DNA of 64,000 bases from Apophysomyces variabilis (taxonomy: Eukaryota > Mucoromycota > Mucoromycetes > Mucorales > Mucoraceae): positions 124,001-188,000 of the forward strand of contig MZZL01000386.1 in the NCBI GenBank assembly GCA_002749535.1, given 5' to 3'. The notes under the pieces were generated by a model that did no database searches, had not been told where the DNA came from, and was given only the letters and a program-made list of their open reading frames with translations. Position 1 is the first letter of the stretch. The number at the start of each line of letters is the position of its first letter. Shown piece after piece: positions 24,655 to 62,800 of the stretch. The position numbers were made by a program, and so were the translations under genes.

Positions 24655-24669
24655 GACAACTTGCCTGAG
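24655..24669. repeat. target-site duplication, left copy (15 nt)
   Basis: GACAACTTGCCTGAG here is identical to 30019-30033, which are the first 15 nt of the tRNA-Ser gene. It marks the 3' boundary of the LINE. Confidence 0.9.
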
Positions 24670-25120
24670 ATGAAGTGTTTGTTTATTATTGGGCTTAATG
24701 GGCATTGTCTATCATGAGCAAATCACCCACCCATTGATCTTTTGGCATAGGAATGTAAAAAACCTCAAACACAAGGTAAAAAAATAAAAAACATAAAGGA
24801 GGGTAAGTGGGGCACAGACCAAGTGACACAAAGATCGGCATGATACTTTGGCCAAATGCGGCAAATGGGAAACAGTAAGTAAAAGGGGAGCGAAAGGTAA
24901 GGGAAAAGCATAGAGATAGCATAGGTACATAGTAGAAAACATAAATAAAAATAAAAAACCCACACGGGGATAAAAAACATAAAAGTAAAAACTGCACAAT
25001 GGAGAGACATCAAGCCTTTGGATATAAGAACCAACCGAACCAGTGAGCATCGTCATTGGCCCAGCAGAAGACCTGCAAAACATCTAACGAGATACTTACG
25101 CATTCACGACAGGCACACAA

Positions 25121-28100
25121 CTACAGAACAGGGTCAGTAGAGCTACAAGCCATGGTGGGAGAAGAAGAGAAAGATATAAGGGAAAGAGAATTTTTTGATT
25201 TTTTCTTTTTTTGTTTTTTTAGCAACTGACGCTGGTGTTCATCAAACGCATCCGCAAGGATGGATCCAGGAAGAGGTTCAGGATCAAAAGCCGAAGTAGA
25301 CGTGCACCGATCGATTTCACGAAGGATAAACAACAGCTGACGCCATATATTCACCAACTTTTCATCAAACCGGCGGAGAGACAGTGGAAACTCATTCAAC
25401 ACATGGTCAAGAATATGCACATCATCCAGGACAGGAGACAGCAGCAAATCCGACAGCGAACGAATGTGAGAAGAGAGGATAGAACATCCATCCACAAAAT
25501 GCACGCGGTTAGCCCTTTTACTACCACATAAACAGGATACAGACGGAGTCGGCGGGAGCCAGGCAATACGCCACTTGATCAGACGATAGCGTTCCTTAGT
25601 AGTGCATGGAAGTAACAAGGTGGGATCCCATCCAGGATATGGCAGAGCCCTCCTCACCGTGACAAACTCAGCGCGCTGTTGATCATGGATCTGCTGGAGC
25701 CTATCCAAGATCGCACATTTGAGAGGGTCAGGCGGTGGATCAGGACTACGCTGGAGTCGTCTGCTTGCACGCCAAAGAGGATTGGTGACAAGTTTCGACC
25801 AGGCGTAGGGGCTTTGGAAACCCTCTATCTGTGGTATCATCACTTTCAGCAGGGTGGTGCGTGGGAGAGAATAAGCACGTTTTACAAATTTTGCTTGCAA
25901 AATCTGAAAACGCGCATACATCGTGGGTAGGCCAGCAAGTGAAGCAACCTGGACCGTACCAACTGGGCTAGCAGGGTTCCGCCGAAGACACATCCTCAGA
26001 CAACGTCTTTGGGTATCATCCAGTGATTTCGCTATATCCGCAGTCAAGTGGCAAATTGCCACGCCATACTCCATAATTGGACGAGCAAATATTTTGTAGG
26101 CACGAAGAGCTGCAGTAAGACCGAATCCATACATATGAACACCCGAATCCCTCAACAACCGCATTGCTGTGATTGCTTTGGTATTCGATTGCCGTAGTAA
26201 TAGATCACGATCCATACCGCCAGAAGAAAAAGGTATACCGAGGTAACGGAAACTTTTGCAGATAGGAAGAGCCTCACCATACAGCAAGAACTCATCCTCC
26301 TGTGACGCATTAAGCACTTCACATTTGCTAGGACTCCATCGATAACCGAAAAGAACAGAATGGACCTCTGCAGCCTTCAACATTCTATGTACGTCAACGG
26401 GGCGACCCACAAGAGCCACATCATCAGCGTACATAAAACAGTTGAGAGGCACGTAAGAGTAATCCGGAACGGGAGACCGTCCTCTCGCACCAGGAACGCC
26501 GGGGACAAAATAAGGATTATGTGGCTGCCGCATCTCATTAAGCAATGAGATGGGATCACCACTCCTTACGAGAGAAGCAAAAGGAAAGTCGCGTCTGGTG
26601 GTCCAATTGAGAGAACGGGTAGAAGGATCAACTGGCACGCGCACCAAGTGTGGATGCAACGATACCGAGCGAAGTAAACGGGGTAATGTATCAATAAAGA
26701 TTGAATACAAGAAGGGAGAAAGAATAGATCCTTGCAACACACCTCGCTTAGGCGTAATAGCCCTAGACGAGTAGTTGGCCAAAATGACCCTTACCAGTAT
26801 ATCCTCGAACATATTGCTGAGCAAACGAAGTAAATGCGGTGCAATGTAATGTCTCAATGTCTCCCAGATGATCACCCTGTTGGCACTATCATAGGCCGCC
26901 TTGATATCCAAGAACGCAACTACTGGTGGTTCACCAACGTGAGAAAAAGCGCGCATTGTCTCGTGCAAGCACAAGGCCTGATCCAGTGTACCACGGTGGG
27001 ACCGAAATCCACCCTGGGAGAGATCTAGCTCCGGCATGGTCGTCAACAGGGAAGGACAAATACACCGTTCCAACAGTTTACGGAAAACTGAGGTCAGGCT
27101 GATCGGACGATAACTCGCCGGATCGTCTATCTTTCCCTTGTTTTTGTAAATGGGGACTACTTGGGCTGTACGCCACAGCACCGGCGTCCAAGACCAATGC
27201 CAACACAAGTTGAACAAGCCAAGGAGCACTGGGCCAAGGTTGTTAGCGATCGGTTTAAGCATTTCTGCACGGATATGGTCAGCACCAGGTGCCTTCCGAT
27301 TCGGCAGTTGCTTTACCGCGTCAAGTACAGTTTCTAGTGTCCAAGGACTGTCCACTTCGTACATATCCAGGTACCACCCTGGCTTCTGACAAAGTGACAC
27401 AGAGCCTCCGAACACTCGTTCCAAGTGATCCACCATTTGATTGGCAGCATGCTGTGGGCCGTGACGTGACGTTAGGGTGACGGTGGGCCTTCGGTTCAGG
27501 CGCATACGTTTGATTGCACTTGCCATCTCCTCCGGACCCCCCTTACGTATCTTGTCGCAGTATGCCTTCCACGTCTTAGCACGAGAGCGACGTACTGCCC
27601 TTTTGAATTCAACGCACGCATCCTCATACGCATGTTTCGCCATCACTTGCTCCAGGTCGTCATCGCATGTCCGTTTCCAACGACGGTACAGACGGCGTCG
27701 CTCGTCAACTAGCTGTTGAAGCTCGTCATTCCAGAACCACTTCCAAGCCTGCTGGCGAGGTCGCGATACGCCAACACTCCTATCCAACGCTGAGTAAATC
27801 GACTCATTGAGCCTTTTCACCAGGTTTTCCATTTGTGCGGCATCTGGGGAACAACGACTGTTAAAAGTACGTTGTATATCCGCAAGTAAGGGTGACGCCT
27901 GCTCCTCAAAAAGATTCACATAACGTTCCTTGACTTTTGGGTCGCTTAGCCTTTGTAATCGCCATTGTCTGCGGGCAGCATCAGTAGGGGGCAGTGTGGG
28001 AAGATCAGTTGCAGGCAAAAACGAGAATTCGCACAAGTGATGATCAGACCTCAAGAGGTCTATCTCATCGCGAATCACAAGTTTAGGCAAGAGGAATTGT

Positions 28101-28684
28101 GGTTCATTCGAAATGAAGTAGTCGATGATGCTTCGCCCGTGGTCGCCATCAAACGTGTTGACGCCATAAGCCAATTCCGCATTCCAAAGCGTTAAACCGT
28201 GGTCGTCTAACCATGCTTCGAAATGATCCCGCCTATGAGGAGTTACACGCGTGTCGCCCGTACGTCTACCCAGTCGAGTGTTGAAGTCTCCAAGGATCAA
28301 GGTATGTTCATCCAAGGGAAGCGTTGAGTACCGTTGTCGTGCTGTTTCAAGATCGAGTTTTGGAGGTAAGTAAAGTCCATGGAGGGTGTATTTCCCTATT
28401 CCAATGGAGAGAGTGTCGGGATTAGTGATAGGAAATTCTTTGTGAGGATAAGGAAAATTAGGTCGAATAAAGAAGGACAAACCACCACGACAATTCACCC
28501 CACTCATCACCTGTCCGTAATTGTGTATCTGCTTCCAAGGACAAGATGGAATCTTGCCCTTAGAAAGGAATGTTTCAGTAACAAGTAGAATGTCTACAGA
28601 ATTTTGTGAGCACAATTCAAATAACTCAACTGGCTGGCGGCCTAAACCGCGAGCATTGAACAATCCAATTGTGAGTCGCTTCAT
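25121..28684 (-). CDS. LINE ORF2: endonuclease / reverse transcriptase
   Basis: 1187 residues, intact. The N-terminal apurinic-type endonuclease (about 1-225) shows FNARG with Asn10, VTETF with Glu37, LILGDFNTR near 131 and SDHHLCEF near 214. The reverse transcriptase (about 450-800) shows NRKAPGADHI, SYRPISLTSV, FLDIKAAYD near 595, GVLQGSILSPFLY and the catalytic FMYADDVAL (YADD at 752-755). A C-terminal Cys/His knuckle of C-x-C...H...C form (CLCGSKRANRVHFVDGC, about 1050) and a Lys/Ser-rich tail finish the protein. The start ATG overlaps the ORF1 stop in an ATGA arrangement, suggesting termination-reinitiation. I see no RNase H domain. Confidence 0.95.
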   Translation of the reverse strand: MKRLTIGLFNARGLGRQPVELFELCSQNSVDILLVTETFLSKGKIPSCPWKQIHNYGQVMSGVNCRGGLSFFIRPNFPYPHKEFPITNPDTLSIGIGKYTLHGLYLPPKLDLETARQRYSTLPLDEHTLILGDFNTRLGRRTGDTRVTPHRRDHFEAWLDDHGLTLWNAELAYGVNTFDGDHGRSIIDYFISNEPQFLLPKLVIRDEIDLLRSDHHLCEFSFLPATDLPTLPPTDAARRQWRLQRLSDPKVKERYVNLFEEQASPLLADIQRTFNSRCSPDAAQMENLVKRLNESIYSALDRSVGVSRPRQQAWKWFWNDELQQLVDERRRLYRRWKRTCDDDLEQVMAKHAYEDACVEFKRAVRRSRAKTWKAYCDKIRKGGPEEMASAIKRMRLNRRPTVTLTSRHGPQHAANQMVDHLERVFGGSVSLCQKPGWYLDMYEVDSPWTLETVLDAVKQLPNRKAPGADHIRAEMLKPIANNLGPVLLGLFNLCWHWSWTPVLWRTAQVVPIYKNKGKIDDPASYRPISLTSVFRKLLERCICPSLLTTMPELDLSQGGFRSHRGTLDQALCLHETMRAFSHVGEPPVVAFLDIKAAYDSANRVIIWETLRHYIAPHLLRLLSNMFEDILVRVILANYSSRAITPKRGVLQGSILSPFLYSIFIDTLPRLLRSVSLHPHLVRVPVDPSTRSLNWTTRRDFPFASLVRSGDPISLLNEMRQPHNPYFVPGVPGARGRSPVPDYSYVPLNCFMYADDVALVGRPVDVHRMLKAAEVHSVLFGYRWSPSKCEVLNASQEDEFLLYGEALPICKSFRYLGIPFSSGGMDRDLLLRQSNTKAITAMRLLRDSGVHMYGFGLTAALRAYKIFARPIMEYGVAICHLTADIAKSLDDTQRRCLRMCLRRNPASPVGTVQVASLAGLPTMYARFQILQAKFVKRAYSLPRTTLLKVMIPQIEGFQSPYAWSKLVTNPLWRASRRLQRSPDPPPDPLKCAILDRLQQIHDQQRAEFVTVRRALPYPGWDPTLLLPCTTKERYRLIKWRIAWLPPTPSVSCLCGSKRANRVHFVDGCSILSSHIRSLSDLLLSPVLDDVHILDHVLNEFPLSLRRFDEKLVNIWRQLLFILREIDRCTSTSAFDPEPLPGSILADAFDEHQRQLLKKQKKKKSKNSLSLISFSSSPTMACSSTDPVL

Positions 28685-29970
28685 AGGTCTTCATCCGCAT
28701 CATCAATTATAATCTCTTCAGAGCTATCCATGTCAAGGTCAACATCTGAAGGATTGATGTCTGTGGCAGGGTCTTGGAAGTCAGCAACTGTTAAAGGTTG
28801 AGATGGTGTTTTGTTGGAGGTGGAGCTGGCACGGCGTTGTTGGATATATTGTTCCATCAGTTCTTGTGGGAGGCGGAGGTTAGTTTCAGTAGTCATTACA
28901 AAGGCTCGCATAACGCTAAGACCTAAGTGTGAGGGGAGACGGAGACATGTACGAAGCATACGATCTTCATAAATCTTGTGGGCCAGTTTGGTGCGTTCGG
29001 TTATAGTACCGGAAGCCAATTTGGGATCACCCAAAATATCAGCATTTGTAGGGTCAAATGCGGGCTTCACTGGTACCTTATTTTGAGTTAACAAGCCAAT
29101 AAGCTCATTTTTATAGTCTGTATGCACCAAGAGAGCAATAGTACCACGGGCAGGGAACTGGATATCGATAATACGAGATTGTTGAATCTTAAGTACACTG
29201 AGAAACTGGCGCACTTGAGAGTAACGAAGATGATGGCGACAAGACAGATATACAAAAGTGTACATAGAGGGACCAGAAGGAGCAGTAAGGGTTCGCTGAA
29301 TTGTTTCTAATGTCACTTTGGTTTTTTTAGGCTTTTGAGGACCTAGATTCTTCGCGACAGTTTTTGCATAGCTGAGTTTCACACTTGAAGCATGGATAGA
29401 ATCGGCGGAGCTTGATCCATTACCACTTTTTTGGGTGACAGTGATAGGGGCAGGGGGAATAGTTGTGTTTTGATTTTCTTTTTTCGTTTTTGTAATGGTT
29501 TCTTTTTGTGTTATATTTTCTAATGGTTGACGCGCTAGAAGGAGGGCCATAAACTCCTTTCGTTCCTCATCCCATTTCGCTTTTTCAGCTGTATGTTGTT
29601 GTAGCTGTTTTCGCAATTCAGCAATCTCCTGATTGAGATTTGCAATTAATGTAACCAAGTGTTCAGTCATCTCAGTTGTTGGTGGCAAGTTATAAATGCC
29701 AGAGTCAATGTTAACACCCTCTGTGTTAGAGTTATTTGTGTTTGGTGCCAATGGGTTAGGGGAAAGTATACAATTTGATCGGGTTCGTTTGTTGAGATTA
29801 GTATGTGTATCAGCTGAAATGAGTTTTGTTGAATTATTAAGAGTTCGCTTCTGTTGTAGTGGGGATTTTTCGATTGTTTTCGACGTTCCTGTGATGGATG
29901 CGTTGATTTCCTTGACGGATGGACGTTTCGATGGTGTTGTTTTGTTGGTGTTGATGGTTATTTTCGGCAA
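28681..29970 (-). CDS. LINE ORF1: nucleic-acid-binding / coiled-coil protein
   Basis: About 430 residues, open from before 29970 to TGA 28683-28681. The first about 95 residues are Asn/Thr/Ser/Lys-rich. A coiled coil follows (about 100-145, LVTLIANLNQEIAELRKQL). The middle region, about 225-345, may form an RRM-like fold (YTFVYLSCRHHLRYSQVRQFL, then ALLVHTDYKNELIGLL). The tail is acidic. No CCHC zinc knuckles are present. No ATG lies in frame before residue 101 (29670); the frame is open through the element's 5' end up to a stop inside the tRNA. The start is therefore either non-AUG or lost by slight 5' truncation. Confidence 0.85.
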   Translation of the reverse strand: MPKITINTNKTTPSKRPSVKEINASITGTSKTIEKSPLQQKRTLNNSTKLISADTHTNLNKRTRSNCILSPNPLAPNTNNSNTEGVNIDSGIYNLPPTTEMTEHLVTLIANLNQEIAELRKQLQQHTAEKAKWDEERKEFMALLLARQPLENITQKETITKTKKENQNTTIPPAPITVTQKSGNGSSSADSIHASSVKLSYAKTVAKNLGPQKPKKTKVTLETIQRTLTAPSGPSMYTFVYLSCRHHLRYSQVRQFLSVLKIQQSRIIDIQFPARGTIALLVHTDYKNELIGLLTQNKVPVKPAFDPTNADILGDPKLASGTITERTKLAHKIYEDRMLRTCLRLPSHLGLSVMRAFVMTTETNLRLPQELMEQYIQQRRASSTSNKTPSQPLTVADFQDPATDINPSDVDLDMDSSEEIIIDDADEDL

Positions 29971-30018
29971 TGTGATATATACTTCTTTGTGTAACCGTAC
30001 AAAAGCGGAAGAAGAAGT

Positions 30019-30033
30019 GACAACTTGCCTGAG
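30019..30033. repeat. target-site duplication, right copy, inside the tRNA gene
   Basis: These 15 nt form acceptor-stem strand 1, positions 8-9 and the start of the D arm of tRNA-Ser. They match 24655-24669 exactly. Confidence 0.9.
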
Positions 30034-30100
30034 TGGTTAAAGGGTATGACTCGAAATCATATGGGCTCTGCCCGCGCAGGTTCAAATCCTGCAGTTGTCG
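30019..30100 (+). tRNA. tRNA-Ser (anticodon CGA), intronless
   Basis: 82 nt. The acceptor stem GACAACT/AGTTGTC pairs over 7 bp, with discriminator G at 30100. The D arm has a 3-bp CCT/AGG stem, and the anticodon stem is TATGA/TCATA. The loop CTCGAAA has anticodon CGA at 30052-30054. A serine-type long variable arm is present (GGGC/GCCC), and the T arm is GCAGG-TTCAAAT-CCTGC. The B box (GGTTCAAATCC) is canonical; the A box has C instead of the usual G at one position, compensated in the D stem. A T7 run at 30101-30107 is the Pol III terminator. There is no intron. Confidence 0.97.
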
Positions 30101-30107
30101 TTTTTTT
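30101..30107 (+). terminator. Pol III terminator of tRNA-Ser
   Basis: Seven T residues follow directly after the tRNA discriminator base. Confidence 0.85.
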
Positions 30108-55449: not shown

Positions 55450-57261
55450 ATGGCGGATAATATCACTGTCAGCCTTTCCCGACTAGCATTGGCCCGAGCG
55501 ATCAAGACGCCCGACGCGGATGAAAATGCGGAACCATGGAATAAGAGCGTCATTTTCCAACAACCCCACATTGTGTCCAAAATGCGCGAACAGCAACAAA
55601 AGAAACAATCCTCTTCTTCCTCTCGTCAGAGACAGGGTCGATCGAGGTATTCCACTCAGCCGCTTCAACAACAACCCCATTACCAGCATCACCAATATCA
55701 ACATCATGGACACGCTCAGGCCACCATGCGAAGGAACCAGGTGCAACAACGTCAACCCGACCAAGTTCGGCCCAGCTCTCGGCCAAGTAGTCAAAGCATC
55801 AGTAGCGGTGGCCGCTCCTCGTTCTCTTCGCAAGAAAACATTCAGACAGGCCCCTTGAGCCGCTCCTTAGGTGCGGCGAAAACACGACAGCAACAAAAAT
55901 ACATGCCGAGTGATGATGAGGACGACGATGAGGAAGAGGACGATGAGGAAGAAGAAGACGAGGAAAGTGCGGACGATGAACCTGTGATTGCGGCAGCTGC
56001 TCCGCCGAGGCAGCCAGCTACACCAAAACTAACATCTAAAAGCGTGCCACCCCCAGCCAGTGACAATGAAGATGAAGAGGACGAAGAAGAAGAAGATGAT
56101 GATGATGATGAGGAGGAGGAGAAGTATAAGCATGCCAGTGAAGAGGATGAACAGGCAGAACGTCCAAAACATGACGAGAAGAAGATTATCCCGTCTGTCG
56201 GGTCGAGTGAACCAAAGAAGACAACGCCACCCGTCATGGAAGACCAAGAGGGTAAGTGTACCACGTTGTGCGGCACGTGTGTCACGGAAGCAAAGAGGGC
56301 GGGAAAGGAAATATAAGCACCGATCATATTATCTGATTTTCATTTTTTAGGAGAAGGAAGTCGCGACTACATGACACGAAGAATGTTTACCCTGCGTCAG
56401 TTGGAACGAGGGCCTAGTTTGCACAAATCAAGGTCCATGACAGACCTTTCCATGCCACAGTCAAGACAAAGTTCCATTGACCAATGGCGACAGACCCTTC
56501 TTGAAACTGATTCTAGCGCTTCGTCAGAAGAAAGACCTTTGCCGGACAGACGGATGTCGAGACTATCCAGCTTTACTGGAATGGAAGATACCAACATGCT
56601 TGCGCATCAACAATTCCAACTGCAGCAACAAATACAACTTGCTAAAATCCAGCAATATCAAGCCATGCAGGTCATGCACCAACAACAACAGCAACAGCAA
56701 CAATTCATGAATAGAATGATGGTACCACCTCAAGAAAATCGGAGACAGAATATCAAGAGTGTGAGTGCCATGGACCTTATCCAACAGTACGAACAAGAAA
56801 AAACGACCGATGTGAGACGGAGAAAACAAAAGAAAATTGACCCATCCAAAGCGCAGATTGATGGGTTATTGGGCAGATTACCCGAACATAACACTCACAG
56901 CATCAGTTTCCAACATCAACAACAACAACAACACCAGCAGCACCAGTCATTCCATCAGCGGGCCAATCCATCGCGTCATAGTCAACGACCAGACCGAAAT
57001 AACAACCATAACGCGAGACGATCTCAAATGGTGTGGCCCGAAGGAGGAGGAGGTCCAATGCCTACACCTAGTATGTCCACTCCTGTCTATGGTTACCCGA
57101 TGCAACAGACACCCTACATGACGACGGGGATGCCTATGGTGCCTATGGGCATGCCCATGATGATTCCCACTTCAATGAGTATGACCAATCTGAATACAGT
57201 AGGACAACGACCGCATCCATCTACAGGAAGAAGACAAAGCACCGCTTGGGGTCAGCGATAG
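55450..57261 (+). CDS. Low-complexity Gln/Glu/Asp-rich protein of unknown function
   Basis: Two exons, 55450-56251 and 56351-57261, encode 570 residues. A conserved-looking N-terminus (MADNITVSLSRLALARAIK) is followed by Gln/His/Ser tracts and two long acidic runs (about 155-175 and 200-225). In exon 2 come MTRRMFTLRQLERGPSLHKSRSMTDLS and STDSS-like phospho-motifs, poly-Gln with coiled-coil character (QLQQQIQLAKIQQYQAMQ), and a Pro/Met-rich C-terminus ending RRQSTAWGQR. No catalytic domain is visible. The composition suggests a scaffold or cytoskeletal/cell-polarity adaptor, which is speculation. Confidence 0.75.
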
Positions 57262-57575
57262 AAAAAAGCTGCATGCTTGCTCCCCCTTCTTCCTTCATCA
57301 CTTCTTCTCTCTCTCTTTCTCTCTCCATCCATTCCATCTTTTTTATAGACACACACCCCTCTGTCTTCCTCTCCATCTTTTACGTCTAATCGTTTAGTTT
57401 TTTTTCATTTTTTATAGTAATTCTTACCATTCATCCCATCTTAATGTTGTCGTGGCGACGTCGGTCTTTTAACATAGCCGTAAATGGAAACAAAAATTTG
57501 GGGATCAGAGTGGTTCCCCTGTAGTTTTCTTCATTCCTCTTCACCTTTTTTCCTATATTGTCGTTGTTCCGCCGA
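57262..57575. other. pyrimidine-rich spacer
   Basis: 314 bp, C/T-rich in 57280-57420. It serves as 3' end of the previous gene and promoter of GUP1. Confidence 0.45.
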
Positions 57576-59711
57576 ATGACGGATGTGGTTCCATTACGCG
57601 ATTTGAGACTTGAAGAACGTCATCCATTTCTTCCTCATACATCTACAGAAACAAAGCCTTCATCACCATCGCGATGGCGAACGTTGGGTAAAAGAGTTGA
57701 GAACAAAAACAAGAACCTCTGTACCTGATTTGGATGGAATGTTTATTATATTCTTTCCCCTCCCCAGAATTCTATGTGTATTATGCATGTGTTGCTATAG
57801 TGATTCCGTACATGATCTATGTGACATACAAACTTGGAAACGAATCACATCCGAACTATTCCCGATTTGAATATCTATTGTCGGAAGGATGGTTATTCGG
57901 TCGAAAGCTGGTAAAAAGGCTAAGCCGGGAATGTTCTCTGTATTCAAACCCGATATATTTCTTTTAGGACAACAGTGATGCACAATATCGCCATTTTCGA
58001 GATCATATTCCCCAGCTTACGCTTTTAAGCATCTTCTATTTATGCTTGAGCCATCTCTACCGGCGTCTATGGGGTCGTCAACAGATTCAGTACTTTTTTC
58101 TGTCCTCTTCGCTCCTTATCACCTCGGTGATCCATGGTGCGAATATGATCAAAATCATGTCGATTGCGTCCTTCAGCTATCTCATTGGACGTATCACACG
58201 TCAATCCATACTAAACCCGGTGCTGACATGGACCTTTGGCGTCGGTATTTTGTTCTTAAACAGTTATTACCAAGGATACACATTTGCATCGATCCACCCT
58301 GAATTGGCTTGGCTGGTAAGGTAAAGCTTTGCCAACGAAACGAATGGAAGGATTTATCCCATTGTTTGGTCTATCTGCTCCCTATCATTGTATGATACAT
58401 TGTCAAATCCAGGATGCCTACCAAGGGATCCAGACACGGTGGCATGTCTTGTTTAACTTTGTGATGTTGCGACTCGTTTCCTATAATATGGATTATTACT
58501 GGCAATTTAAACAACGAGGCATTTTGGTTAGTTGACCTGTCAAAAGAGGCGATTTTTTTGTTCCTGACGCTTCGGGATATCGTCATAGGATCGTTCAGAA
58601 CCACCCTTGACAAGCAAGGACAGAATGATCACTTCATGCGTGGAATCCGATTATAATTACCTCTTCTTTCTTGCTTACGTGTTTTACATACCTCTTTATC
58701 TCTGTGGACCCATTGTGACCTACAATGATTTTATATCGCAGGTAAAAGAAAAAAAAAGCTCTTCACTTCTAAATCTCGCCGTCCTTTTTCCCAACTAGAT
58801 ACGGCACCCTTGTAAGATTGACCTTCGCTATATAGTGCTCTACGCCTTACGCTTAGCGGCAACAATATTTTTGATGGAATGGACGCTGCATTATTTGTAC
58901 GTGGTGGCCATCAGTAAGACGCAGGCTTGGGAGGGAGATACAGCGCTCGAGATCAGTATGATTGGCTATTTTAACTTGCTGATCATCTGGATGAAGCTTC
59001 TGATTCCCTGGCGTTTCTTCCGGCTATGGGCCTTAGCGGATGGCATGTGGGCCGAGGAAAATATGGTTCGTTGCATGAGTAACAATTTCTCTGCTCAACG
59101 ATTCTGGAAAAGTTGGCATCGAACCTTCAACCGATGGACGATTCGGTACATTTACGTGCCTTTGGGTGGATCAAAGTATCTGATGCTCAACATGTGGGTG
59201 GTGTTCACCTTTGTTGCACTATGGCATGATATTGAGCTCAAGCTACTTGCTTGGGGCTGGTTGATCTGCTTTTTCTTGTTACCTGAGCTCATTGCTTCCA
59301 GGGTCTTCACTTACAAAAAGGTAAATGTTCATTTATTTCTCTATTATTCTCGTGTATTGAGGAAAGAAACTACTGTGAATAGTATGGTCATCAACCCTAT
59401 TATCGATTCGTCTGTGGTATCGGTGCAGTGGCCAACATCTTGTTAATGATGACGGCCAATCTGGTAGGCTTTTGCGTCGGACTGGATGGTATGAAGAGTA
59501 TGCTGAGTCAAATCGTTGGTACAGTGGATGGTAAGCTTTATTTATAGGATAAAAAGGGTATATGCATCGTGGCTGACACACCTATTCTTGGTTTTAATTA
59601 GGCATTATCTTTTTTATATCTGCATGCATTTGTTTATTTGTAGGCGTGCAGATCATGTTCGAAATCAGAGAAAGTGAAAAGCGGCGAGGTGATCCAAAAT
59701 GGACAATGTAG
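57576..59711 (+). CDS. GUP1: GUP1-type membrane-bound O-acyltransferase
   Basis: MBOAT enzyme of the ER; yeast Gup1 remodels GPI-anchor lipids by acylating lyso-PI. Eight exons: 57576-57687, 57768-57910, 57968-58315, 58413-58526, 58589-58741, 58799-59320, 59383-59530, 59644-59711; 535 residues. Family motifs: [90 protein letters not shown], and the catalytic-His region [16 protein letters not shown]. The N-terminal soluble 35 residues are Ser/Pro-rich. The C-terminus ends RRGDPKWTM. It converges on SPT5, with 103 bp between the two stops. Confidence 0.95.
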
Positions 59712-59814
59712 GAAACCAGAAAGAAAAGATTTGCTCTTTTTCTCTTTAATAAATGATAATAACGATAAAAAAAACAATGTGTAAAGCGGAAAATAGCCAG
59801 GATTTGGCTTTTAT

Positions 59815-62800
59815 TTACATAACATCCTCGTTGCCTGTGTACTTTCCAACGGCTCCCATTCCCATAATCTTGAAACCGCTGCCACCTCCTTTAAGACGAA
59901 CAATACCGTCATGGCTGTCAACGCCAATCAACGATCCTAATTCTCCACGATGCTCACCCAGTATAACTTTAACGTTATCCTTTTTGCTGGGCCGGATCGG
60001 TTCTAAGCTATCGTACGGAATTTCGATGGTAGAGCTGCTGTCGTACAGATGCACCTGACAGGTCCTATTAGACGAGCTGAAGCTGACAATAGAACCGATT
60101 TGTCCTTCCGAAACACCAGAGTGTGCAGAGGTAACTTTGACCTCAATTTCTTCAATGGGCCAATCCTCCCTACGTTCTTCTACGTAACATTAATATAAAC
60201 AGCTTAGAGAGTGTCAACTTATTATACTTGCCTTCTTCCACCTGATGATAATCACCGCCACTAGGCATAAATGAGGTTGGGTGATTGCCCGTTACCGCAG
60301 GTGTTGTTGGCATGTATGAACCAGGTGTAGGGGCAGTTAACATATGCGCTGCAGGTGTTGGTGCACTAACTGCTTCATATGGTGTGGGTGCAGTTTCATA
60401 AGGTGTTTGTGCGAAATTAGCGGCTGGTGTTTGAGGGAAAGGAGCAGGTGATGGCGCTGCATTGTATGTTGGCTATTTACGTTGATGTCAATCTTCCATA
60501 AATCGCAGGTGCATTACAAATACTTACTGCTGGTGTTGGTGCAACGAGTGAATGCGCTGCTGGGGTAGGAGCTACTTCGTTATCGTTATAACGGTTTCCC
60601 CACATCGGTGTCTTGTTTCCGGAATCTGTGAAGCCGGGAGTCTTTGCACTCATACCACCCCAGCGAGGTGTTTCTGCTCCCCACATAGGAGTTTTACTGC
60701 CCGAGTCCCAGGAAGGCGTTTTAGAGCCATCATTAAACGCGTATGGATTTGGTGTTTTGCTACCAGAGTCCCATGCAGAACTTTTGCTTCCATCCACAGA
60801 GTAGGGATTTGGCGTTTTCGCGCCTGAATTCCATGCGGGAGTGCGCGACCCAGACGAATAATGCATTGGTGTCATAGCACCGTCTCCATACCGTCTTGGG
60901 GTTGCTGAAGGATTAGCAAACTCGTTGGCACTGTTTGCGAATCGGTCATTTTCAACCGCTGGTCCGATCGTTCCACCCTGAGCATCGACAAGCACAAGTT
61001 TAGACTTGTCAACGCTGATAATTTTGCAGTTTGTATGTAATTCCACTCTTGCCATCGTATCCGTTGTATCTTTAACAATACCAAGATATCCTTTATGAGG
61101 TCCTTGGGCAATTCGTACAGTCTTTGCTACCAAGTTATCACGCCCGCCTTGGCCTCGTCCATAGAATCCGCCGCGTCCTCCTCTACCACGGCCTCGACCA
61201 TCATGACCTCCTCTAAATCCCGGAGCGTTACCAAATGGTTGTGGTCTTGATAAATCGCGCCCTTGCTGCTGATTCATTGGCTGCAACACTCAGTTAGCAC
61301 AACCTGCCATTCACGGTTTTTCGTTCACATTTCTACTTACTGGTCCTGTCTTATTTTTTGCAGCAACACTTGCCACGGATCTCGTAGTTGTCACCCGGAC
61401 GCCATAGTTTTCTGAATTTTCTCTGGAATACAGAAATACTAAGTTCCTGAACAGATGAAGAATAGTGCTGGTCCGCTTTTCTCCGTCCACTTCAATTACA
61501 GTGTCTCCTGAACGGATGCTATTCCCGCTAGCATCTGTTGCAAATGCTCTTTTGCTGTCACGTTTGTTTGTGATCTGATGAGGAGATACTGTTCGCACTT
61601 CTTCATGTTGTGTCAGTACCTTGAAAGTGTCTCTGTCCACTTTGATAATCACACCAACAGTGCCGAAGCTAAATATCGTTAGTTACACAATAACCTAGCT
61701 TCTCAATACACTGTACTTACTCAAGTTGCACCAAATCATGCAGTTCATAGTTGCCAATCACGGTTCTGCCCAAGGTGATTTCGGCAGCTTCACGTAAATC
61801 TTTAGCAAAAACCTTCACTTCTTTCATGGTTGCATCTGATAGCATGGTGATTACACTGTCCTTCACGTTCAGAACCATGCCACTTTCGTCTTTGTACCGT
61901 CCATTGATCACCTTCACGTGGTCACCCTCCTTAAACTTCTTACGGATTAGCTTAGGTGGCAAAGTTACACGTTTCTCGAAGCCTTCCACTTGCAAGGAAA
62001 CAATGACATCCGAGTCTTTGACAAACTGAACCACACCGGTACTATGGATCATATCACCCTCAATGACTTCGACGGTATCGCCTGGTTGGAAAAGTGAAGA
62101 AGCTTGAGCGTTAGTGACGCTTTGAACTGACAGCATCGTCAAATCCGGCATTCGGTCGCCTTCTTCTGGGTTCAATTCTCCTCCACCAGCAAATTTAGCT
62201 ACTTCATCCAGCGTAGGTGTTACATCTTCTATTTGAATGGTCGCGACTTTCATATATTTCTCCAGATATCCATCACGGAACTGATCCCCATTAAAAAGCC
62301 AATAAGGTCCCTTCTTTTGCAGACTAGAAATATGCCGGCTTCCCAAACGTTCTGGGTTGAACAGTCTTTGTGGCGGTCGTACTGAGGCTCCCTTCTTTCT
62401 TTTTCTGGTCGCATCATCTTCATCCGACTCCAGTTCCAATCGAGGTACGAGCTTAAGACGAACGTTGTCTTGAGAATCGGTGACTTCCAGAACCTGTGCA
62501 AGATCACCCGCATACTTTCCACGCCTGACACGGACCCATCCACCCAACGGTATCTCTACATCTTTCCGTGGTATGTTGATAGAATCAATCATATCCTTAA
62601 TAGGTACAAGCATAAGACTGGTATGATACACAAAAGGCACATTTGCTATCGCCTAGAAAGACACAATTAGATCGGTTGCCATGGCTCTTCCATGTTTTTA
62701 CCTGCTGCACGTGTGCTTGACGTTTTGCTTCAATGTACACATATCCCTTCAAGGACTCTCTTGCAAAAGCGGAAAAGGTCTCAAGTGGATTATCGCTGTA

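Follow-up and report, generated by a model that had tools for sequence, protein, structure and literature searches.

A LINE of Apophysomyces variabilis probably targets the heads of tRNA genes and appears to rebuild them by a 15-nt duplication

We analyze a 64,000-nt stretch of DNA (“the window”, C70:124001-188000, where C70 is contig MZZL01000386.1) from one Apophysomyces variabilis assembly (GCA_002749535.1), together with searches of that genome (38.7 Mb, 126 contigs). In the window, a long interspersed nuclear element (LINE) with two open reading frames (ORFs) lies against a serine transfer RNA (tRNA) gene, tRNA-Ser(CGA). We are confident, if short of certain, that it is a site-specific LINE with an endonuclease of the exonuclease-endonuclease-phosphatase (EEP) type, like the apurinic/apyrimidinic endonuclease (APE), and that its target is the head of tRNA genes. 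By sequence comparison, several tRNA genes bear this same junction, formed with several LINE families and with a short interspersed nuclear element (SINE) that shares the LINE tail.

The 15-mer GACAACTTGCCTGAG is present at 24655-24669, as a stub, and at 30019-30033, where it is the start of the intact tRNA gene (Table 1). The LINE 5' end (ACTTCTTC... at 30018) adjoins tRNA nt 1, and its 3' end (...AACACTTCAT at 24670) adjoins the stub. The duplication is exactly 15 nt, because it is preceded by g (24654) at one copy and by t (30018) at the other. That T is the outermost base of the LINE, here and in other copies, and G 30019 is accordingly taken as the first mature tRNA base. ARAGORN finds a single tRNA in the window, this one; its 7-bp acceptor stem (GACAACT/AGTTGTC) is fully paired, and its last base, G 30100, is followed by a T7 run. 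A first-pass annotation, made from the letters alone, had described a two-ORF LINE bounded by perfect 15-nt copies and inserted within tRNA coding sequence, with the duplication rebuilding a whole tRNA. This description holds: both copies are exact, the element is 5,349 bp long, and the tRNA is intact. The original gene was cut between nt 15 and 16, leaving the LINE antisense to a rebuilt tRNA, and therefore “at the 5' end” and “inside the gene” name the same insertion. The annotation had also raised the prospect that the 15-nt match might occur at unrelated positions; there is no third GACAACTTGCCTGAG site in the window even when 2 mismatches are allowed, and no further exact match in the genome.

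Site specificity had been proposed from this one copy, and the flanks of the other copies of this family (hereafter, the Ser family) bear it out. Searching for the last 24 tail bases plus the following C, with up to 3 mismatches, returned 16 places, against 0 for the reversed control. At 14 of these 16 3' ends, the next 15 nt (shift up to 3) match the tRNA-Ser(CGA/AGA) head with 0-4 mismatches, versus 21 of 20,000 random positions from which the real sites had not been removed. By these counts, independent copies share one defined target, as expected of a site-specific LINE. The 5' ends behave similarly, with eight out of 10 adjoining a tRNA-Ser head by script and one more, C38:55952, by eye (the script scored 10 mismatches on an alignment that began at element base 5; the real stub, 55949-55963, has 2); C61:114983 failed. 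The 5' end at C61:151964 belongs to a different family (the Ala family, below) and is excluded from this count. The 5' and 3' counts overlap, as in stacked insertions one stub flanks one copy on its 3' side and the next on its 5' side.

The LINE stands at nt 1 of intact genes on C70 (Ser(CGA)), C38 (Ser(AGA)) and C79 (Ser(AGA)). On C16, 25 bp of the LINE 5' end stand at nt 1 of a Ser(AGA) gene before the contig ends, and on C15 a SINE head occupies nt 1 of another. In all, five out of six tRNA-Ser(CGA/AGA) genes are occupied by a LINE or SINE at nt 1, where the six are the yield of one DNA search for these anticodons and the list may be incomplete. The sixth, a paralogous Ser(CGA) gene at C94:1877193 that differs at three positions from the one in the window, shows neither a LINE match nor a SINE head or tail pattern within 1,400 bp upstream. 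Copies truncated at the 5' end occur at the same tRNA-head site on C38 and C93. Conversely, when the genome was searched for the Ser(AGA) head, all 5 exact matches were tRNA genes or stubs beside these elements, and 4 of the 6 one-mismatch matches fell at known junctions, with the remaining two on C29 and C52. The same search with 2 mismatches was too loose to count stubs (47 places versus 28 for the reversed control) and was set aside. Broader searches gave 18 matches with the LINE 3' end and at least 55 matching stretches with ORF2, the latter a lower bound because the scored set was 39 of 205 candidates; in the search for the tRNA family, 63 of 1,464 candidates were scored. On C79, one LINE match ends at 564380; ~6 kb of other sequence follows before a matching 3' end, more diverged, appears at 570429.

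ORF2 (open frame 25121-28690, 1,189 amino acids) combines an EEP endonuclease at its N terminus (PF03372 at 11-217) with a reverse transcriptase (PF00078, RVT_1, at 519-675), and this combination in one ORF identifies a LINE with an EEP/APE endonuclease. Pfam gave no RNase H match in ORF2. In a sequence search against solved structures, human LINE-1 ORF2p ranked first (3.3e-13) with R2 proteins close behind, a ranking that does not fix the LINE clade.

Other LINE families show the same junction at other tRNAs. The Ala family (the C61 element, ORF2 48% identical) adjoins tRNA-Ala(TGC) with one extra G, and the stub at its 3' end is one mismatch off tRNA-Ala nt 1-15. Family 2 (~40% identical) adjoins tRNA-Ile(AAT) (C71) and tRNA-Phe (C87). 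At its 3' ends, nt 1-15 of these tRNAs are present as exact stubs (Ile at C71:39240, Phe at C87:849306); the bases outside the stubs differ, so the duplication is again 15 nt. A family-2 5'-end pattern with up to 2 mismatches occurs at 7 places, of which 6 lie at a tRNA head or stub. Five of these six are tRNA genes or heads: one Ile, two Phe, one whose GCA anticodon makes it Cys, and a head reading GCCCGGTTAGCTCAG; the sixth is an Ile stub. In a third family (43% identical), one element on C71 lies between two exact Ile stubs. The target strings are GACAACTTGCCTGAG^TGG, GTCGATATGCCGGAG^TGG, GGGGATGTGGTGTAG^TGG, GCTCGCTTAGCTCAG^TTGG and GCGGGTTTAGCTCAG^TTGG, and the cut in every one falls after A14-G15 in the A box. 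The first-pass annotation had suggested a self-sparing strategy, and its recurrence at other tRNAs in other families lends that suggestion further support.

A SINE uses the same site. Three copies are complete (408, 409 and 408 bp) and share 94-96% identity. They begin GGGGCATGTCCCC, end in 49-73 bp resembling the LINE tail, point the same way as the LINEs and have tRNA-Ser stubs of 15-17 nt on either side; a fourth SINE head is the one that adjoins the C15 tRNA-Ser gene. A-box-like and B-box-like stretches are visible in the SINE by eye only, and an Rfam scan of one SINE-bearing locus gave no tRNA match. A SINE at the LINE site is expected if the LINE machinery moves tail-bearing RNAs to its own site. 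By eye, a possible decayed fifth SINE lies on C79 between 570708 and 571131.

Insertions at one gene can form stacks. Outward from the C38 tRNA-Ser(AGA) gene lie a LINE (62586-67925), a stub, a SINE (62163-62570), a stub, a 5'-truncated LINE (61746-62145), a stub, a LINE (56388-61730), a stub, a SINE (55964-56372), a stub, and more LINE sequence. Compared with the window copy over aligned ORF2 plus 3' untranslated region, the C38 LINE layers differ, from the gene outward, at 6/4,020, 8/400, 140/4,020 and 65/1,745 positions (0.1, 2.0, 3.5 and 3.7%); the 5' part of the proximal copy is only ~73-77% identical. A stack on C61, read outward from tRNA-Ala(AGC), shows 134/1,667 and then 165/1,333 differences. 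Divergence grows outward in two of the three stacks compared (C38, C61, C93), a pattern that speaks more for new insertions into the intact gene, time after time, than for insertion into old stubs. Relative to the window copy, 12 Ser-family copies show 1,037 differences, of which 905 are C>T or G>A, and cytosine decay or a process like repeat-induced point mutation may add to age in copy divergence. Contigs C93, C67, C16 and C15 terminate inside or within ~450 bp of LINE or SINE insertions at tRNA heads, and therefore stacks may be collapsed or longer than assembled.

These observations bear on three other explanations. That the LINE inserted at random and the 15-nt match next to it is a coincidence has next to no credibility: the 15-mer occurs only twice in the genome, about 0.07 occurrences are expected per 38.7 Mb (both strands, equal base use), and the same structure is found at many junctions. 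We rejected a chance origin because there are no further sites and 14 of 16 3' ends lie at tRNA-Ser heads. It is also very improbable that a block of tRNA plus LINE was duplicated, so that the apparent specificity reflects one old event. Several copies do share tRNA-Ser(AGA), and the stacks are tandem, as such duplication would have it. However, the window copy and the proximal C38 copy, for all their 6/4,020 differences, stand at different tRNAs (CGA and AGA), each with its own matching stub; the 30 bases downstream of the tRNAs differ, by eye; and the same junctions are found in other families and in the SINE. On the locus-specific stubs and differing flanks, block duplication was rejected as the main cause.

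A more serious alternative, which we regard as possible though rather unlikely, is that the RNA polymerase III (Pol III) machinery is the main guide, with LINE proteins docking on TFIIIC/TFIIIB and the endonuclease cutting at a fixed distance with little reading of sequence. Such guidance would alter the guide and not the outcome. It would suit family 2, which is found at several tRNAs with little in common beyond the A box, and it would suit two Ser-family pieces lacking the 5' part that lie up to ~18 bp upstream of tRNA-Ala(AGC), not inside tRNA-Ser: C61:116640-116700 (L013) and C120:46987-47080 (L046). There is also a precedent, as the TRE5-A ORF1 protein is described as binding TFIIIB proteins (PMC5911963). 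Yet the Ser family, family 2 and the third family share one junction base, as does the Ala family but for one mismatch, whereas TRE5-A uses a window, with 80.2% of insertions reported within 47+/-3 bp (PMC5391098). The Ser family keeps to tRNA-Ser at 14 of 16 3' ends, so the families distinguish between tRNAs. TFIIIC would be expected to cover the nicked A box, which we also count against this guide.

Several observations weigh against site-specific homing to the A box as we read it, or limit its reach. Two Ser-family 3' ends have no matching head (C79:368778, 8 mismatches; C61:114999, 9), and no tRNA head is found in the flank of the family-2 5' end at C95:906211. The 15-nt spacing is not absolute: the 3' ends at C38:62163, C38:22063 and C79:571131 have two extra bases (17 nt), and 1-4 extra bases are present at some 5' junctions. 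The C61 piece at tRNA-Ala(AGC) was likely cut at GAGAG^TGG at base -1, not within the tRNA, a site compatible with sequence reading by the endonuclease and with guidance by Pol III factors alike; more generally, the two are not separated by these data. In the C93 stack, read from the contig end inward, divergence runs 14/1,179, 10/2,904 and 84/4,025 (1.2, 0.3 and 2.1%), with no steady rise. Homing to tRNA genes is shown for only some of the LINEs here, in families whose ends were read, which do not include C92/C35 and C84/C113; a narrow A-box pattern search found 5 places, among them the Ile gene that is occupied, and none of the 5 is close to the C92/C35/C113 elements. We infer nicking, the order of the strands and expression of the tRNA from sequence.

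In the mechanism that we propose for the site-specific LINE, the endonuclease would make its nick within the A box, behind A14-G15 on the tRNA-sense strand, and the freed 3' end would prime reverse transcription of the LINE RNA. The second strand would be cut 15 bp away, at nt 0/1, the mature tRNA 5' boundary, and fill-in would restore the gene. With the nick after G15, 15 bp is the shortest duplication that restores the gene. The restored gene could be targeted again, so that older copies would be pushed outward with one 15-nt stub per insertion. A low host cost would be expected, as the tRNA and its internal promoter stay whole and the 5' leader alone is replaced by LINE sequence. At three 5' junctions, extra sense-strand bases (GTC at C67:250851-250853, GAGC at C79:325547-325550, GGC at C87:854144-854146) equal the antisense first 3-4 nt of tRNA-Ser(CGA), tRNA-Ile and a tRNA starting GCC, respectively. 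With three cases, these could be antisense tRNA carried over from the donor locus or untemplated additions as reported for TRE5-A in PMC5391098.

LINEs associated with tRNA genes are already known, and the gene-rebuilding A-box version appears as a variant of these; the distances of TRE5, TRE3, NLTR-A and NLTR-B to tRNA genes are described in PMC5911963, PMC5006619 and PMC5391098. NLTR-A of Dictyostelium purpureum, a non-LTR (long terminal repeat) element, is placed 2-6 bp before the mature tRNA sequence, with an RNase H domain after the reverse transcriptase (PMC5006619). The window LINE resembles it in sitting just upstream of a tRNA gene. In contrast to its small upstream window and RNase H, the window LINE lies exactly at nt 1 (distance 0), duplicates nt 1-15, has no RNase H by Pfam, and resides in a fungal host, so it does not have the defining features of NLTR-A. 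A term search of the main text of PMC5006619 finds no mention of target site duplications for NLTR-A, which may therefore be geometrically closer than it appears. TRE5-A of Dictyostelium discoideum, as described in PMC5391098 and PMC5911963, is likewise a tRNA-associated two-ORF LINE with tandem insertions at one tRNA gene and extra 5'-junction nucleotides; it differs in inserting ~47 bp upstream, outside the gene and in a window, and in ending in oligo(A). With distance 0 and nt 1-15 duplicated, the window LINE falls outside the 40-54 bp upstream of tRNA genes that characterize TRE5.

Target-specific LINEs of tRNA genes include NeSL-1_TV (tRNA-Pro), LIN15_SM (tRNA-Arg) and LIN25_SM (tRNA-Glu), listed in PMC4640811. 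Compared by that description, these are relatives of NeSL/Utopia, and Utopia has a restriction-like endonuclease, whereas the endonuclease here is EEP. Dewa of zebrafish is a target-specific, tRNA-linked LINE, but its stated target is a tRNA-Leu spacer and not the gene (PMC3706591). Dada DNA transposons also use fixed sites inside tRNA genes; they differ in having a DDE transposase and a 6-7 bp duplication, and the authors ascribe tolerance to high tRNA copy number (as given in PMC3706591 and PMC8869645). The NeSL/R2-like type, with a restriction-like instead of an EEP endonuclease, does not fit the window LINE with its N-terminal EEP domain, although no search was aimed at a restriction-like fold. 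Bacterial genomic islands integrate into a tRNA gene and restore it, by integrase recombination at the tRNA 3' part and not by target-primed reverse transcription. Our searches of the open-access literature brought up neither a LINE whose insertion inside a tRNA gene is repaired by its own duplication nor a tRNA-homing LINE in Mucorales; a prior description elsewhere is possible.

The window LINE would be a clear case of an element that cuts inside a low-copy, presumably essential kind of gene and yet does not break it, because the duplication is as long as the stretch between the nick and the end of the gene. Several related families that differ in their preferred tRNAs coexist in this genome and offer a natural system for studying target choice by LINE endonucleases, and stacks with a 15-nt tag per event could give the order of past insertions and of C-to-T decay. 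Insertion without breaking the target gene is of interest for safe-site DNA delivery.

We built an ORF2 tree of 36 rows, consisting of 13 elements from this genome and 23 of 52 database proteins; it is drawn with a midpoint root, and ten rows are unlike the rest in composition. The tree was made without reference LINE clades (L1, Tx1, Tad, I, R1 and others), so that no clade name can be assigned from it. A 30-row clade with support of 100/99 includes all the named Mucorales rows in the tree, from Circinella minor, Lichtheimia ramosa, Mucor velutinosus and Mucor saturninus, and its first split places the Ser, Ala and third families on one side (94/95) and family 2 on the other (88/90). Support for this split is not strong; were it correct, tRNA homing would either go back to the ancestor of the clade or have arisen more than once. 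The third family is nearest to two proteins, one of them from Lichtheimia ramosa. On balance we lean slightly toward the broader view of a Mucorales LINE clade with ancestral A-box homing, in which the spacing of the two nicks makes the duplication equal to the missing tRNA 5' end. Such homing would never exhaust its target and could safely hit tRNA genes of low copy number; the SINE would travel with it, and past insertions would be recorded in layers at each tRNA gene.

Table 1. Features of the LINE and its tRNA-Ser(CGA) target in the window
Feature	Position	Strand	Basis
Distal target-site duplication copy: 15-nt stub, tRNA-Ser(CGA) head nt 1-15, at LINE 3' end	24655..24669	+	exact match
Complete LINE, Ser family, 5,349 bp, no poly(A)	24670..30018	-	sequence and comparison with other copies
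LINE 3' tail, common with 408-bp SINE elsewhere in genome	24670..24738	-	88-98% identical over 49-73 bp of SINE
ORF2: endonuclease (PF03372/PF14529) and reverse transcriptase (PF00078)	25121..28684	-	ORF list, Pfam
ORF1 from first in-frame ATG	28681..29670	-	ORF list
Proximal target-site duplication copy, nt 1-15 of intact tRNA gene	30019..30033	+	exact match
Intact tRNA-Ser(CGA) gene; then T7 run at 30101-30107	30019..30100	+	ARAGORN (30018-30101) and sequence

The two ORFs overlap, with the ORF2 ATG (28684-28682) and the ORF1 stop TGA (28683-28681) sharing an ATGA. Viral contigs scanned for relatives yielded none. ORF1 has no Pfam match at E 0.1. Seven ORF1 relatives were found; the 6 named ones are from Apophysomyces, Spinellus and Rhizopus, and the best is from Apophysomyces ossiformis (66%). 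For the Lon protease, the best among 120 listed of 7,916 matches belongs to Apophysomyces sp. BC1034 (92%), and the two matches would probably place the host in or near Apophysomyces (Mucorales). The ORF1 frame (28681-30036) is open past the element 5' end into the tRNA head, with its first ATG only at 29670, and a related partial Apophysomyces protein (P0053) likewise continues upstream of this Met.

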